This document shows, one piece after another, positions 1 through 39,960 of a stretch of DNA of 64,000 bases. Where the stretch lies: the NCBI RefSeq assembly GCF_001590685.1, contig NZ_CP014616.1, positions 667,501-731,500 on the forward strand, read 5' to 3'. Source of the stretch: Sporosarcina psychrophila. GTDB taxonomy: Bacteria > Bacillota > Bacilli > Bacillales_A > Planococcaceae. Position 1 is the first letter of the stretch. Each line of letters starts with the position of its first letter. A model generated the notes under the pieces. It ran no database searches, had not been told where the DNA came from, and was given only the letters and a program-made list of their open reading frames with translations. Both the position numbers and the translations under genes were made by a program.

Positions 1-1818
<1,818 letters not shown>

Positions 1819-1898
1819 TTTTGAAAAGGGCTTGATTACCCTGATTCGTGTAGCACAATGTCTGTTTTATTCAGTTTTGAGCGAACAAGCTCAAAGAG

Positions 1899-2014
<116 letters not shown>

Positions 2015-2016
2015 GC

Positions 2017-2050
2017 AAGGTCATTGCCAATAGGTAATGGCTTTTTTTGT
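2017..2050 (+). terminator. rrn operon terminator
   Basis: The hairpin CATTGCC-AATA-GGTAATG is followed by a run of T at 2042-2048, directly after 5S. A nearly identical copy lies at 2613-2645. Confidence 0.85.
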
Positions 2051-2289
2051 GTTTATTTTTAGAAATTTTTTTTAGATATATATATCAAATAAATGAGTAT
2101 CTATACGAACTAAGAGAATGCGCATTTAAATAGACAATCGAAGCTCTGAGAGTAGTGGAGCACCAACTAGGCCTAAGGAGGAAAATATCCCTAGCGCAAT
2201 AGGGAATTCAAATGGATTCTTTATTTTAACTTACATACGTTAATTTGTAATTATACAAAAAAAGTAAGGATAATCGTATATATATATAA

Positions 2290-2445
2290 ACTCAAGCGCC
2301 TTGGTGGAGCTGAAAAGGACGACAAGCGACAGAGGAAGGCAGCTTAGGATCAGCGCGACACAGATGACACAATGTCGCAACAGCTCTGCATGCCCCCCGT
2401 TGTGTAGGCTCGGGAGCTAGGCGCTGGAGTCTAGACGCTACTCTA
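2290..2445 (-). repeat. GCGCC-type dispersed repeat, inverted copy
   Basis: Read on the minus strand it begins GTCTAGACTCCAGCGCCTAG and ends with an AAGGCGCTTG-type terminus. The plus-strand copies at 34.6-34.7 kb open with GTCTAGACTCCAGGCGCC and close with GGCGCCTTTCGCTTTTC. The ends are therefore conserved while the middle has diverged. Confidence 0.65.
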
Positions 2446-2549
2446 GGTGAAAAAGTTTATAATTTCTTGTCTTTCGAAAAAAGGGTGGTCTCAATTAAAA
2501 AACGTCGCCTTTCCCCTTCCGTGTCTACATTACTAGGGACAGGGATAAT

Positions 2550-2612
2550 AAGTTCGCATGCTGATGATGGTTCGGAGCTCTTCCACGTGAGGAGTTGGAC
2601 ATCGCCGGTAGT
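2550..2612 (+). pseudogene. Degenerate 3' fragment of a 5S rRNA gene
   Basis: The sequence from GCTGATGATGG (2560) to ATCGCCGG (about 2608) can be aligned by eye with the 3' half of the 5S gene at 1960-2014 (GCGCCGATGG ... GGACGCCGCC). It is followed by the same terminator. The 5' part is barely recognisable. This looks like a decayed extra 5S copy, not a functional gene. Confidence 0.5.
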
Positions 2613-2645
2613 AAGGTCATTGCCAATAGGTAATGGCCTTTTTTG
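2613..2645 (+). terminator. Second copy of the rrn terminator
   Basis: Matches 2017-2049 over 33 bp with a single T-to-C difference in the stem tail. It follows the 5S remnant and has no gene of its own. Confidence 0.8.
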
Positions 2646-2901
2646 TCGTCCGGGAAATAATGAAATCTCGTACTTATGGAGAAATGCTATCTAAGTTAAA
2701 TTATTGAATATGTTATGAAAACAGAGCGCTAGCTTCTTACTGGGAAAGTCGGAGCCAAATGACTATAGGATAGGTGAAGCAGTTAGATTAATGGGGTTGG
2801 GCATACAAAATGCGATATTGAAGGGTTTATTTACTTCAATTTATATAATAACGAAATTCCGTAAATGTACAGGTCTTAATGTAAGTGAGTTATATATATA
2901 T

Positions 2902-3140
2902 GATCGGTTTACGTGTTGAAATGATCGGCTGTGCAGTGGTTATGATTGTTTAGGTGTTGATATGATCGGTTGTGCAATGGTTATGATTGTTTAGGAGTTG
3001 ATATGATCGGCTGTGCAGTGGTTATGATTGTTTACGTGTTGATATGATCGGTCGTGCATTGGTTATGATTGTTTAAATGTTGATATGATCGGTCGTGCAG
3101 TGGTTATGATTGTTTAGGTGTTGATATGATCGGTCGTGCT
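2902..3140 (+). repeat. 41-bp tandem repeat array 1 (GATCGG/ATGATTG type)
   Basis: The word GATCGG starts at 2923, 2964, 3005, 3046, 3087 and 3128, exactly 41 bp apart, with a partial unit at 2902. Midway in each unit lies ATGATTGT, so ATGATYGK-like words alternate every 20 or 21 bp. Because 41 is not a multiple of 3, no frame runs through. The array at 38.1-38.5 kb has the same words in inverted orientation. Confidence 0.92.
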
Positions 3141-3348
3141 CCTGATAAGCTCGCTCGCCTATAATTTTAGCCATTATGATTGAACAATTAGCGACATAAG
3201 AATTGGTGTTAGATTATGGAAGTGGCGATTAGAATACCTAAATTCATCTTCGGATTCGAGCTACTTGTCCGTCTATTCTTAATAGCTTGAAATCATAGCC
3301 TAACAGCGATACGATAAGGGTCAAGCAATATTGAAAGGGGTGGTTATT

Positions 3349-3876
3349 TTGCAAATGGTGCTCATTATATTCGCGATTAATATCGTGTATGTTACATTTT
3401 TTACAGTGCGCATGATTCTAACGTTAAAAGGCTATAGATACATCGCTGCCGGACTTAGTGTAGTAGAAATCGTTATCTATGTCATCGGCCTTGGTTTAGT
3501 GCTTGATAACCTGAATGAAATACAGAACTTAGTAGCCTATGCAATCGGTTATGGTTGTGGAGTTATTATTGGGTCGAAGATTGAAGAGAAGATGGCACTT
3601 GGCTATATTACAGTAAATGTAATTACGTCAGAGAAGAACTTGAAATTACCGAGTATACTGCGGGAAAAAGGTTACGGAGTCACAGATTGGTCAGCGAATG
3701 GTCTTGATGGGGATCGGTCTGCTATGCAGATTCTTACCCCGCGTAAATATGAATTGAAACTTTACGTTACTATTAAAGAAATAGACCCAAAAGCATTTAT
3801 TATTGCATACGAGGCGAAAATGATACATGGCGGTTTCTGGGTTAAGAGTGTGAGGAAAGGGAAGTTGTTCAAGTGA
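3349..3876 (+). CDS. yebE: YebE-like membrane protein (UPF0316, DUF2179)
   Basis: About 175 aa. Three hydrophobic segments fill roughly the first 90 residues, followed by a soluble C-terminal domain typical of the UPF0316/DUF2179 family; the biochemical role is unknown. The start is set at TTG 3349 because AAAGGGG sits 8 bp upstream, whereas an earlier TTG at 3331 would bury that site inside the gene. It overlaps the next gene by 4 bp. The yebE-yebG pair lies directly upstream of purE in Bacillus subtilis as well, which supports the assignment. Confidence 0.85.
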
Positions 3877-4073
3877 GTAAAAAGAAGACTATATGGTTTG
3901 ACGTGGAAACAGAAGAGACTATTGAGGATTGTTTGAAGCGAATGGCTGCAGAAGGTTATGCAGTTGCGGGACGAAAGGAAGAGCCGCTGTTTACTGAGGT
4001 GAATGGAGAATTTATTCCAGTACGGCAAGTTATCAAGTTCAAAGGTGTACTAAGAGAAGATGAAAATGCCTAA
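3873..4073 (+). CDS. yebG: YebG-like NETI-motif protein
   Basis: A 66-aa protein starting with GTG inside the 3' end of yebE, so probably translationally coupled. It has the compact form of the small family often annotated NETI motif-containing protein: an early [11 protein letters not shown] segment, a short helix and a basic C-terminus. No function is established. A terminator follows at once. Confidence 0.8.
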
Positions 4074-12477: not shown

Positions 12478-12580
12478 TGATCAAGGCTTGGGCCGGCAGA
12501 AAGCAGGTCATGCAGTCGTTGCGACAGGAAGTCGCGATTTTAGACTGCTATCCTAACATACTAATTGGAGGGTTTTATTC

Positions 12581-15434: not shown

Positions 15435-15814
15435 TTTACGAAACATCCAATCCGATAATAAAGAAAAGGAGGATCGGTAGAATACGTATATAGTCAGCAC
15501 TTAACGAATGGAATGTTCTTCCTGTATCGCTTAGTCGCTTGGTGATGGCCTTACACAATAAGCCCGCCAGAAGAACACTGTCAGTCTTATTGATCCGGCG
15601 CCTGCAGGATGCGGGTGTGCAGCCAAATATTGCCGCAGGACGCGGCAATATTTGGCTGCCTTTCATTAGTGTCGCTTCTTCGCTAGATTTGTTCGTTATA
15701 CGGGTGAAGTATAGCACTTAGTTAATTCCAAATAAGTAGTGCTGAATATATAGTTGAAAAATTTACCAAATTATTTATACTTAAGGTGATGCTTTCCAGA
15801 AAGGTGAAGAGACA
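15435..15814. other. Gene-free spacer with a large perfect hairpin
   Basis: No convincing gene; open frames on both strands look like chance products of GC-rich palindromic sequence. The main element is the 18-bp-arm hairpin at 15619-15659. The sequences CAGCACTTAACG (about 15497) and TAGCACTTAGTTAA (about 15713) near the edges resemble each other loosely. Confidence 0.5.
15619..15659. repeat. Perfect 18-bp inverted repeat (5-nt loop)
   Basis: GCAGCCAAATATTGCCGC, loop AGGAC, then its exact reverse complement. There is no T run on either side, so it is not a standard terminator. It may be the core of a small mobile or REP-like element. Confidence 0.8.
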
Positions 15815-19355: not shown

Positions 19356-19792
19356 TTTATCAAATCCAATCGATTGTAATACTATACTATTTCGTCAAAA
19401 GGTGTCGGAACCCTTTTACTGAGGAAAGGTTCGCAACGTATCTCTGAAAGTAAACAACGCGCTACGTAAACTAAACAACAAAGTTGAGAAAGTATGCAAC
19501 GTATCAAGAATTATGCAACGTATCTCCAGAAGTAAACAACACACCGCGTAAACTAAACAACAAAGTTGAGAAAGCATGCAACGTATCAAGAAGTTCGCAA
19601 CGTTACCTCAAAAGTAGACAACAGAATATCAAAAGTTAACAACGTTCAGTGTAAACTTCACAACGCCCGCCTCAATATGAACTCCTCGTTTGTCCGAAAT
19701 AACAAAAAATGTCTACCGAACTCCCTATTTATTTCCTCAATGCTATGCTACGATAAATAGTATGAATAGTTCAGTTAAAGGGAGAGTGTATC
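19356..19792. other. Divergent intergenic region filled by a phased repeat array
   Basis: 437 bp between the methyltransferase and ade. About 19430-19670 is the CAAC array. About 19680-19780 holds the ade promoter region and the GGGAGAG ribosome binding site. No gene. Confidence 0.7.
19430..19668 (+). repeat. Phased repeat array 3 (CAAC word every ~20.6 bp)
   Basis: The word CAAC starts at 19434, 19455, 19476, 19497, 19516, 19537, 19558, 19579, 19598, 19619, 19640 and 19661. The spacings are 21, 21, 21, 19 repeated, so an 82-bp higher-order unit (twice 41) recurs. Recurrent flanks are TATGCAACGTATC and GTAAACAAC. The sequence is unrelated to arrays 1 and 2 but the period is the same. Confidence 0.9.
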
Positions 19793-35548: not shown

Positions 35549-36895
35549 ATGGGAAATGAAGAAGCAGTCTTTTTTTCAAGGGTCTTAACCGAAACAACTT
35601 TATCATTCCATATTATTTATGCAACAATTGGCGTCGGAGTACCGTTGATGATTATGATCGCACAATGGGTTGGCATAAAGAAAAACGATGATCACTATAT
35701 TTTACTTGCACGACGTTGGGCAAGAGGTTTTATCATTACAGTTGCCGTTGGTGTCGTAACAGGAACCGCAATCGGTTTACAATTATCCTTGTTATGGCCT
35801 AATTTCATGGAACTTGCAGGGAACGTCATTGCACTTCCGTTATTTATGGAGACGTTTGCATTCTTTTTTGAAGCAATTTTCCTTGGTATTTACTTATATA
35901 CATGGGATCGTTTTGAAAACCAAAAGAAACATTTTCTATTACTTATTCCGGTTGCCATCGGAGCATCCTTTTCTGCGGTGTTCATCACAATCGTTAACGC
36001 ATTCATGAATGCACCAAGAGGGTTTGATATCGTTAATGGTGAATTCGTTAACGTCAATCCGCTACTTGCGATGTTCAATCCAGCGATGCCGACGAAAGTG
36101 GCACACGTTGTTGCGACTTCTTATATGACAGCTGCTTTTGTGCTTGCAGCGATTGCAGCGTTCCGCCTGTTAAAAGGTTCGAATCATGAATACCACAAAA
36201 AAGCACTTTATCTAACGATGAAAGTTGGGCTTGTCTTTGCAATTGCATCAGCAATTATCGGTGACTTCTCAGGAAAATATTTAGCGGAGTATCAACCTGA
36301 AAAATTGGCTGCCGCAGAATGGCATCTTGAAACAAGTGAAAATGCGCCGCTGATAATGTACGGCATTCTCAAAGATGGAGAAGTTAAATATGCCATCGAA
36401 ATACCATATGCATTATCATTCCTTGCACACGGTAGTTTTACTCAAGAGGTAGCTGGTCTGGATCAATTCCCTGAAGATGAAGTTCCGCCACTTTACATCC
36501 ATTACTTATTCGACATAATGGTGTCAATTGGTATTTGGATGACCCTTCTATCGGGCGTATTTTGGTTAGGGGTTCAACGAGGTTGGAAAATGGTTGCTAC
36601 GAAATGGTTCCGCTGGCTTATCGTACTCGGTGGCCCTCTAACACTAGTAGCGATTGAAGCCGGTTGGTGGCTTGCTGAAGTTGGTAGACAGCCATGGATT
36701 CTAAGAGGTATTATGCGAACGCAGGACGCTGCTACGACGAGCGGACATGTTGACTCCATGCTTATCTTGTTCTGCTTGCTTTATCTTGTCCTAGGAGTCG
36801 GTAGTATAGTCGTACTGAGAAAAATGTTCCGAAACAATCCAGTTGAACGCGAAATTGAAGATCGTGATACGGAGAAAGGCGGCGACGTGCTATGA
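35549..36895 (+). CDS. cydA: Cytochrome bd-type quinol oxidase subunit I
   Basis: 448 aa, about nine transmembrane helices. It oxidises quinol and reduces oxygen to water. Likely haem ligands: His in TLSFHIIY (near residue 20), His in KVAHVVATSY and Met in LFDIMVSIG. The GRQPW segment is conserved. The Q-loop is short, as in the bd/CIO type of Bacilli. AAGGGGG precedes ATG 35549. It overlaps cydB by 4 bp. Confidence 0.95.
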   Translation: MGNEEAVFFSRVLTETTLSFHIIYATIGVGVPLMIMIAQWVGIKKNDDHYILLARRWARGFIITVAVGVVTGTAIGLQLSLLWPNFMELAGNVIALPLFMETFAFFFEAIFLGIYLYTWDRFENQKKHFLLLIPVAIGASFSAVFITIVNAFMNAPRGFDIVNGEFVNVNPLLAMFNPAMPTKVAHVVATSYMTAAFVLAAIAAFRLLKGSNHEYHKKALYLTMKVGLVFAIASAIIGDFSGKYLAEYQPEKLAAAEWHLETSENAPLIMYGILKDGEVKYAIEIPYALSFLAHGSFTQEVAGLDQFPEDEVPPLYIHYLFDIMVSIGIWMTLLSGVFWLGVQRGWKMVATKWFRWLIVLGGPLTLVAIEAGWWLAEVGRQPWILRGIMRTQDAATTSGHVDSMLILFCLLYLVLGVGSIVVLRKMFRNNPVEREIEDRDTEKGGDVL

Positions 36896-37917
36896 CACTC
36901 GAGATACTAGGCATATCCGTTCTATGGACTTTCCTGTTCGGTTATATACTGATTGGTGCCATTGATTTTGGAGCAGGTTTTTTCAATGCCTACAGCACGC
37001 TCACTGGCCGTCAGCATATTTTGACCAACATTATTCAGCGCTATTTATCGCCTGTTTGGGAAGTGACCAACGTTTTCTTAGTGTTCTTCTTTGTTGGGAT
37101 TATTGGGTTTTTCCCGAAAACAGCGTTTTATTATGGAACGACGTTATTAATCCCCGTCAGCATTGGGATTATCCTACTGGCCATCCGTGGTTCCTATTAT
37201 GCATTTGAGACATATGGGGCGCGTGGACACAAAGGGTATTCGTTCATGTACGGCCTTGCCGGAATACTTATTCCAGCATCGCTGTCCATCGTACTTACCA
37301 TTTCTGAAGGTGGATTTATCGACATGGTAAACGGCAATCCCGTACTCGATTATTGGAGGCTGTTCTCCAGTCCGTTGACCTGGTCGATCGTTGTGTTAAG
37401 CATCGCCGCAACGCTTTATATATCGGCGGTATTCCTGACTTGGTATGCGAATAAAGCACGTGATGTTGCAGCGACGAATATGATTCGGAAATATGCGCTC
37501 ATCTGGGCATTGCCGACTATTATCACAGCAGGGGGCATTATATTCGAACTAAGAAATCACAATCCGGAACATTACACTAACATCCAAAACTTCTGGCCCA
37601 TGTTCCTTATCTCGTTTATCATGTTCATCGGAACGGTTTGGCTAATCTGGAAGCGCCGTAATTACGGTCTCGCGTTCCTATTGCTAGTGGGCCAGTTTGC
37701 CTTCGCCTTCTTTGGCTATGGTGCGTCCCATTATCCATACTTGTTGTACCCGTACTTAACGATTTACGACAGTTTCACGAACCCGGCCATGGCCATCTCG
37801 CTTATCGTGGTGTTCATCATGGGACTTGGGCTGCTGATTCCGTCATTGTACTTGCTCATGCGTCTATTCCTATTCGATAAAGACTACGTCCGCGGAAAAG
37901 GCGACTACCACGCATAA
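36892..37917 (+). CDS. cydB: Cytochrome bd-type quinol oxidase subunit II
   Basis: 341 aa with about eight transmembrane helices, the structural partner of CydA. The N-terminal GAIDFGAGFFNAY segment is the family hallmark (DFGxG). Translationally coupled to cydA, followed 13 bp later by a short membrane ORF. Confidence 0.94.
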   Translation: MTLEILGISVLWTFLFGYILIGAIDFGAGFFNAYSTLTGRQHILTNIIQRYLSPVWEVTNVFLVFFFVGIIGFFPKTAFYYGTTLLIPVSIGIILLAIRGSYYAFETYGARGHKGYSFMYGLAGILIPASLSIVLTISEGGFIDMVNGNPVLDYWRLFSSPLTWSIVVLSIAATLYISAVFLTWYANKARDVAATNMIRKYALIWALPTIITAGGIIFELRNHNPEHYTNIQNFWPMFLISFIMFIGTVWLIWKRRNYGLAFLLLVGQFAFAFFGYGASHYPYLLYPYLTIYDSFTNPAMAISLIVVFIMGLGLLIPSLYLLMRLFLFDKDYVRGKGDYHA

Positions 37918-38050: not shown

Positions 38051-38598
38051 AAGAGAGCAGACGTCGATTGTGGCGTCTGTTTTTTGTTGGTGATCGGTAG
38101 GCGGGCGTATGTGGGTGCGAACCGATCATATAAGAAGGCAATCAGTCATAAGCGTGTGCGAACCGATCATAAAAAAGTAGGCAACCGATCGTAAGCGTGT
38201 GCTGACCGATCATAAAAGTTGGTAGCCAATCATAAGTGCGTGCGAACCGATCATAAAAGTAGGCAACCGATCGTAAGCGTGTGCTGACCGATCATAAAAG
38301 TTGGTAGCCAATCATAAGTGCGTGCTGACCGATCATATATGTAGGCAATCGATCATAAGTGTGTGCTAACCGATTATAAAAGTAGGCAACCGATCATAAG
38401 TGTACACTGACCGATCATATAGGTTAGTTTACCGATTATATGGGTGGACCAACCGAGCATATACAAGTGCCGACTAGCCAAACAAAATCTACTCCCGCAG
38501 TAAAGTACATGTTTTGTCTAATAGATGCCCACGCGACATCTGTTTTTTCACCCTCAGCATGGTAAACTAAAGACATCTGAAATTTGGAGGAAAATATA
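38051..38598. other. Intergenic region dominated by repeat array 2
   Basis: 548 bp without a gene. A short hairpin (CAGACGTCGATTGTGGCGTCTGTTTTTT, 38058-38086) terminates cydABS; the repeat array follows to about 38465. About 38470-38598 holds the leader and GGAGG site of rlmCD. Confidence 0.75.
38092..38465 (-). repeat. 41-bp tandem repeat array 2 (CCGATCAT/CAATCAT type)
   Basis: About 17 copies of a CCGATCATA-like word spaced alternately 20 and 21 bp (for example at about 38251, 38271, 38292, 38312, 38333, 38353, 38374, 38394, 38415), so the full unit is 41 bp. Spacers such as AAGTAGGCAA and AGCGTGTGCTGA alternate. Reverse complemented, the words are those of array 1 at 2.9 kb. Confidence 0.92.
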
Positions 38599-39960
38599 AT
38601 GTCATATAGTGTAAATAGAAACGATCGTCTCAGCGTCTACGTAGAAGATTTAACGCACGATGGTTCGGGCGTAGCAAAAGTGGACGGCTATCCGCTTTTC
38701 ATCCCCGGTGTACTTCCAGGCGAAGAGGTTGATATACAAGTAGGTAAAACATTGAAAAAATACGGCTTTGGCAGGCTGTTAAATATAACGAAAGCATCCC
38801 CTGATCGTGTAAAACCGCCTTGTCATGTATTCTCAGAATGCGGTGGATGTCAGATGCAACACTTGTCTTACGAAGGTCAACTTGTGCAAAAGCGTAAAAC
38901 AGTACGTGATGTAATGGACCGTGTCGCAAAACTCCCCCATGTGCCAGTGCACCCAGTAAAAGGGATGGACGACCCTTGGCGCTACCGCAATAAATCACAA
39001 ATCCCTTTCAGTGAGCGGGATGGAAAAGTTGTTTCTGGATTTTATAAATCGCGTACACATCACATCGTTGACACAGATATCTGTCTCATCCAAAGTCATG
39101 AAGCAGATGACCTAATGGCTATGTTGAAATATGAGCTACATGCAATCGGCGTTGATGCCTATGATGAAAAGACTCACTTAGGTTTGCTTCGTCACTTAAT
39201 TGTCCGGAAAGGACGTACCTCAGGCGAAGTAATGGTTGTTTTAGTAACGCGCAAAAAGAAATTTACGCAGAAAGATGCAGCCATAGAACTTATTAAACGT
39301 GTCGTTCCAAATGTAACGTCAATTATGCAAAACTTTAACACCGAGAGAACGAACGTTATTTTCGGTGATGAAACAGTTTTGTTATACGGGGAACCGGTTA
39401 TTGTCGATTCAATCGGCAACATCGATTTCGAAATATCTGCACGCTCTTTCTACCAAGTGAACCCTGTACAGACGGAAGTCCTTTACGGACAGGCACTAGA
39501 GTACGCACAGCTAACAGGAAATGAATCTGTCATCGATGCGTATTGCGGTATTGGTACAATTTCGTTGTTCATCGCACAAAAAGCAAAAGAAGTTTATGGC
39601 GTTGAAATCGTTCCCGAAGCAATCGAAGACGCTAAACGCAACGCGGAATTGAATGGCATAAATAACGCGCATTTCGAAGCAGGCCCTGCTGAAGTCGTCA
39701 TTCCGAAATGGTATGCAGATGGCAAACGATTCGACGTGCTGGTTGTTGATCCACCGCGTAAAGGCTGCGACGAAGAACTTTTGAAAACAATTTTGGAGTA
39801 TAAGCCAAAACGTGTTGTTTACGTATCATGTAATCCAGGTACACTTGCACGGGATTTACGCATACTTGAAGATGGCGGTTATCGCACGCAGGAAGTACAG
39901 CCGGTTGATATGTTCCCTCATTCGAGTCATGTGGAGTGTGTGGCTTGGTTGGAGATTTGA
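38599..39960 (+). CDS. rlmCD: 23S rRNA (uracil-5-)-methyltransferase RlmCD
   Basis: 453 aa, TrmA/RumA family, methylating U747 and U1939 of 23S rRNA in Bacillus. N-terminal TRAM domain (residues ~3-60), Fe-S cysteines in [19 protein letters not shown]-binding [12 protein letters not shown] and the nucleophile Cys in [16 protein letters not shown] 38599 follows GGAGG. Its last codons ([10 protein letters not shown], stop) recur four times downstream, marking this 3' end as an insertion site. Confidence 0.96.

Follow-up and report, generated by a model that had tools for sequence, protein, structure and literature searches.

Helix-phased direct-repeat arrays dispersed over gene ends of Sporosarcina psychrophila look like a docking track for a candidate DNA-binding protein

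The 41-bp repeat found twice in the window (the whole 64-kb stretch analysed, bases 667501-731500 of a genome that forms one 4.67-Mb contig) belongs to a far larger family, with about 40 arrays on the chromosome. The arrays look like a docking track for a candidate DNA-binding protein. If a protein does read them, they would represent an undescribed way to mark operon ends or to organise the bacterial chromosome. Even without a function, they show that a helix-locked period can be maintained by bacterial satellites over many loci and words, and this calls for a mechanistic explanation. Clear handles for testing come from the well-defined word and step and from species whose arrays use another word in the same slot.

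Two arrays in the window and their family in the genome

Array 1 lies at 2898-3139 on the + strand and consists of 11-12 half-units, WTATGATYGGT plus spacer, in 20/21-bp steps that form a 41-bp dimer (Tandem Repeats Finder, word positions, and weight-matrix scan). GATCGG occurs on the + strand at 2902, 2923, 2964, 3005, 3046, 3087, and 3128, with one 21-bp step followed by 41-bp steps, and ATGATTG stands midway at 2942, 2983, 3024, 3065, and 3106. The units are TATGATCGG and TATGATTG, and 20- and 21-bp steps alternate. Tandem Repeats Finder placed the repeat at 2899-3139 with period 41, 5.9 copies, and 90% matches. Array 2, at 38111-38463, has about 16 half-units with the motif on the - strand (Tandem Repeats Finder, weight-matrix scan, and slot comparison). 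Here Tandem Repeats Finder reported 38111-38419, period 41, 7.5 copies, and 78% matches, and in both arrays it gave sub-periods of 20 and 21. The 41-bp repeat of two half-units described in the original prediction was therefore confirmed by word positions and by Tandem Repeats Finder. The positions of its word pair, GATCGG and ATGATTG, were also confirmed, but ATGATTG is the Y=T variant of a single core, ATGATYG. The prediction had further described an inverted copy 35 kb away. The complement of GATCGG does occur at 38122...38411, so the core word of array 1 is on the - strand of array 2; however, the two are no special pair but two of about 40 arrays, and they have only the core word in common, their spacers being unrelated apart from composition.

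Array 1 is flanked by an rRNA operon, with a 23S rRNA gene that is partial at the window start (1-1818, +; Rfam) and a 5S rRNA gene (1899-2014, +; Rfam) as the last known gene before the array, and on the other side by a gene for a DUF5698/DUF2179 protein (3331-3876, +; Pfam). No tRNA was found in window 1800-4000. Array 2 lies between the terminator of the cydAB operon and rlmD. The cydA and cydB genes, for cytochrome bd oxidase subunits I and II, lie at 35549-37917 (+; Pfam). The intrinsic terminator GCAGACGTCGATTGTGGCGTCTG with its T-run (38051-38088, +; sequence and terminator scan) ends this operon about 22 bp before the array, and rlmD, for a 23S rRNA uracil-C5-methyltransferase, follows at 38584-39960 (+; NCBIfam TIGR00479). 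A decayed look-alike of a TAGGCTCCAGGCGC-like dispersed repeat was seen at window 2400-2440, upstream of array 1, and a repeat of this kind (L112:6090-6300) adjoins the array at 370.9 kb. Two Bacillaceae-1 RNA matches (Rfam) were seen at window 12493-12559 and 15601-15670 (-).

The word pair was counted genome-wide at the 20/21-bp spacing. ATGATYG N13-14 ATGATYG occurred 183 times on the + and 110 times on the - strand, 293 in total in 4.67 Mb, compared to 0/0 for the reversed pattern, so its abundance is not due to chance. Similarly, TATGATCGG occurred 331 times compared to 12 for its control. A weight-matrix scan of 510 kb, namely the stretches around word matches, outside which about 13 of the 293 word pairs fall, gave 39 arrays with 669 words (units). 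Arrays 1 and 2 thus belong to a family that is dispersed over the Sporosarcina genome. The unit is WTATGMTYGGT followed by about 10 bp of free spacer. Arrays had 7-36 units, all of one orientation within any one array, and the core WTATGMTYGG is not palindromic. When array columns were compared within the genome, the core barely varied and the spacer approached composition.

Among the unit steps of the 39 arrays, 316 were of 20 bp, 247 of 21 bp, and 46 of 40-41 bp, and about 22 had other lengths, some of them further multiples. The longer steps were multiples (40/41/60/81/82), and only about 17 intervals were otherwise. The mean period was between 20.09 and 21.00 bp in all 39 arrays. The original prediction placed the words on a single helical face at two-turn intervals, which is a fair geometric reading. 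Pure-20, alternating 20/21, and pure-21 arrays coexist, which indicates that steps of plus or minus 1 bp often happened. No 19- or 22-bp array was present among the 39, though single units of 19, 22, 23, 27, and 28 bp arise. A coding repeat was rejected because of the alternating 20/21 steps and the intergenic location. Phage or plasmid cargo was also rejected, with one word-pair match in the viral contig collection and none in plasmids.

Position relative to genes and replication

The usual site of an array was just past the 3' end of a gene, and many arrays began a few tens of bases 3' of an intrinsic terminator. By simple gene calls, 36 arrays were assigned to 24 tandem and 12 convergent gaps. 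None was in a divergent gap, compared to 40 of 187 background gaps (Fisher p=0.0006). The neighbours were ordinary, unrelated core genes, such as floT, metE, argH, ftsZ, pyrG, and pgi, and no DNA-binding gene recurred among the genes flanking the arrays. A tie of array 1 to the ribosomal operon was not general, since the other arrays follow ordinary genes.

A location past transcription units and a helix-related period would also be expected of a topological element, read by DNA gyrase or by a nucleoid protein that wraps DNA, that relieves positive supercoils downstream of transcription units, similar to E. coli BIME-2, and BIME-2 repeats of enterobacteria bind gyrase (PMC2817692). We regard such an element as improbable. 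The GC rhythm of the gyrase motif is 10.75 bp (PMC6379681), whereas A/T autocorrelation in the arrays was 0.01 at lag 10 and -0.03 at lag 11 and rose above zero only at 20-21 and multiples thereof. This speaks against a gyrase-type wrapping or bending signal, and by this measure the arrays showed no phased rhythm of about 10.5 bp such as a gyrase-motif element would have. Unlike a bending signal, the repeats also have polarity and a specific word, and the operons next to them do not clearly stand out as the most highly expressed.

The place of most arrays after gene ends or terminators is also consistent with a role at the RNA level, in which a read-through transcript would carry repeated RNA sites, such as a Rho-utilisation-like C-rich tract, an sRNA sponge, or a guide array. 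The motif strand of the spacers is rich in G, so the antisense RNA would be C-rich and G-poor, which counts for such a role. Nevertheless, it appears very unlikely. On neither strand was there structure beyond that of shuffles (fold z-scores -1.7 to +1.5), no Rfam match was found at the arrays, their strand relative to the upstream gene was mixed, and Rho does not need a strict 20/21 step. The fold scores and the Rfam result led us to reject an RNA element.

The word was opposite to the leading strand in 30 of 39 arrays (p=0.001), and in 10 of the 12 between convergent genes. The origin half of the chromosome (dnaA at 30.7 kb) held 29 arrays and the other half 10. These results would suit a replication-polar element, such as a fork barrier or KOPS-like guide, with the motif strand set against replication. 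Against this, nine of the 39 arrays are exceptions, and in tandem gaps orientation is confounded with gene direction (16 arrays antisense and 8 sense to the gene, p=0.15). Known polar replication guides are scattered single words, unlike the present core word, which is nearly confined to arrays with few copies elsewhere. We therefore give a replication-polar element little credence. The 16 versus 8 split was not significant, and a strict gene-antisense rule was rejected. Replication orientation, raised in the original prediction, is thus present as a strand bias of the word, but gene and replication direction are entangled and not cleanly separable here.

Persistence of slots and other words with the same step

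Array loci of Sporosarcina E16_8, psychrophila CHK171-7178, JAI121, and BP05 mapped to slots that carry arrays in the present genome. In 17 orthologous array pairs, with flanks 81-91% identical, mismatch was 37% in the spacer and 5.7% in the core, the latter a lower bound because the units were located by the core matrix; phase played no part in locating them. In Sporosarcina sp. BP05, about 2 kb of extra DNA lies beside an array (L094:1402-3490), whose slot corresponds to 3346796 in the present genome. Arrays of the present word are few or absent in many congeneric species, which indicates that the genus can do without the system.

The slot between cydAB and rlmD was surveyed in 30 Sporosarcina genomes. 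It held arrays with periods of 20-21/40-42, and several species were without any. The words in this slot were ATGATCGG, ATGGTCGGTC, ATGAGCGGTC, TTGGTCGCTT, GATTGATCGCTT, RTGAYCGATAA, TTTGCGYG, CGGTAGTAAAT, TTTRGGCGC, and TTCTGGCGTTCA. Arrays of other words, both here and in relatives, showed autocorrelation peaks at lags 20-21/40-42/60-63. The present genome holds further families B (GTTGGACAC), C (RTGACAGTT), and D, all with a 20-21-bp step. Family B, with a step of 21 bp, was seen directly 3' of terminators (L122:1784-1957 and L107:3064-3195), and family C, at L125:9674-10146 and L122:11663-11857, had 61- and 82-bp higher-order units. The family D array is in the window at 19430-19660 (+), with a step of about 21 bp, the words GCAACGTATC / AAACAAC, and autocorrelation peaks at lags 21, 42, and 61 (Tandem Repeats Finder, autocorrelation, and sequence). 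It sits between two divergent genes, one for a methyltransferase and one for an adenine deaminase, and has partial relatives at genome positions 532904 and 4282270.

Related arrays were found at Planococcus, Planomicrobium, and Siminovitchia loci. Across the class, a strict triple-word pattern found almost only the present genome because words differ between species. With a looser pattern, rich genomes were mostly in the same family, with a few beyond (e.g., G447 and G237), and counts were near zero in most Bacilli. As a control, tandem repeats of a small set of unrelated loci had scattered periods of 6-36 bp, and most of the 20-21-bp repeats in that set were the pattern matches themselves. 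Short TATGATCGG tandem arrays of 20-21 bp were also seen in contigs from Rhodobacteraceae and Okeania (L096:3989-4071 and L064:6953-7115), probably by chance convergence. Since relatives and the present genome have different words with the same period, the two-turn phase is the invariant. The original prediction would have been refuted had the copies proved to be ordinary minisatellites whose phase differs among loci or strains. Instead, the phase was kept across loci, species slots, and unrelated words, and both core and phase, which an ordinary minisatellite would not conserve from locus to locus, are kept over 39 loci and between species.

The strongest rival to a docking function is a functionless or selfish satellite, in which an ancestral repeat of about 20.5 bp spread to gene-end gaps and was locally homogenised by slippage and unequal exchange, with an inherited period, a drifting word, and no reader. 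Homogenisation within arrays is indeed strong, with higher-order units. Spacers of different arrays were also more alike than the column-composition null (6.42 vs 5.77 of 9), a hint of common descent. Unit number changed from about 16 here to 3-4 in E16_8 at the slot of array 2, and no places are more permissive than gene 3' ends. However, drift predicts that the core diverges like the spacer, in conflict with the orthologous arrays, and the period was held to 20-21 although units of other lengths arise, and is common to unrelated words. The satellite reading accounts for homogenisation and location, but not for core constancy or the bounded period; we consider it a serious possibility, if a somewhat unlikely one.

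Docking-array model and known systems

Given the observed word, phase, dispersion, 3'-end position, persistence in orthologous slots, and slower core, we propose, with confidence evenly poised between acceptance and doubt, that the arrays are direct-repeat docking arrays at operon ends for a candidate sequence-specific protein on one face of B-DNA. A conserved word with a free spacer, a bounded two-turn step, and polar orientation fit such a protein. Each unit of about 20.5 bp would offer one recognition word of about 10 bp, and the candidate protein would occupy the same face every two turns, giving a polar multi-protein assembly over 7-36 units. Judging from position, assemblies on the silent DNA that follows gene 3' ends may act as an operon-end boundary, either as a block to read-through and/or as a nucleoid anchor or supercoil barrier. 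Unequal exchange would grow and shrink the arrays and give rise to higher-order units of 41, 82, and ~123 bp. Word and phase would be held by selection for binding, with the spacers free to drift, and on longer time scales the word and its putative reader may change together. Several points weigh against docking arrays. The 3'-end location could merely be where insertions are tolerated, the period could descend from one ancestral satellite, and the low core mismatch is helped by finding units with the core matrix. In addition, family D occupies a divergent gap, the array neighbours include no recurrent DNA-binding gene, and arrays of the word are dispensable in the genus.

In agreement with the original prediction, which knew of no described Bacillota element of this kind, we found no published description of these arrays in the open-access literature. 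The closest kinds are REP/BIME by distribution and iteron or centromere arrays by geometry, and the feature set matches neither. Like the 39 arrays, REP/BIME of enterobacteria and pseudomonads are dispersed, extragenic, and clustered, typically past gene 3' ends; they are also species-specific, hypervariable between strains, and protein-binding in E. coli, which we count as likeness. However, BIME have palindromic units in alternating orientation and are tied to RAYT transposases, whereas the present arrays are same-direction repeats of a non-palindromic word that recurs at a constant two-turn interval. Plasmid iterons and type II/III partition centromeres, such as the 20-bp ParR repeats of pSK41, are direct repeats with cooperative one-face binding, and share with the arrays the polar repetition at about two helical turns. 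They form one locus per plasmid beside a rep or par gene, whereas here about 40 chromosomal arrays of up to 36 units lie by unrelated core genes, with no cognate binding-protein gene among those flanking them.

TIGR-Tas arrays resemble those described here in their conserved words of ~10 nt, variable spacers of ~10 nt, and double unit of ~41 nt. They consist of two alternating repeats with diverse 9-nt guide spacers (PMC12045711) and have a Nop-domain Tas gene alongside, whereas the ~40 loci here are without a tas gene. The Nop domain PF01798 had no match in the present genome. Among 67 other Sporosarcina genomes, six had weak matches, some multicopy, in ORFs of ~310-437 aa, and these are probably IS110-type transposases. 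The lack of RNA structure and of Nop proteins speaks against RNA-guided readings, and CRISPR/TIGR was rejected because there is no Nop protein, only one word, and spacers recur within an array, where those of the same half differed by a mismatch of 0.32-0.49.

Alpha satellite with CENP-B and PRDM9 sites combine a fixed period with word turnover, concerted change, and species-specific words. The present arrays differ from such eukaryotic satellites in being bacterial, short, and dispersed over gene ends, and their reader is hypothetical. They are similar to a eukaryotic satellite with a co-evolving reader in their fixed period and changing, species-specific words. We tentatively extend this likeness to a Planococcaceae satellite-and-reader system, a doubtful but possible reading, in which arrays would mark gene ends with the two-turn step as their sole fixed property, a species-specific, genome-wide word would track its putative reader, and one genome may hold several word-reader pairs.
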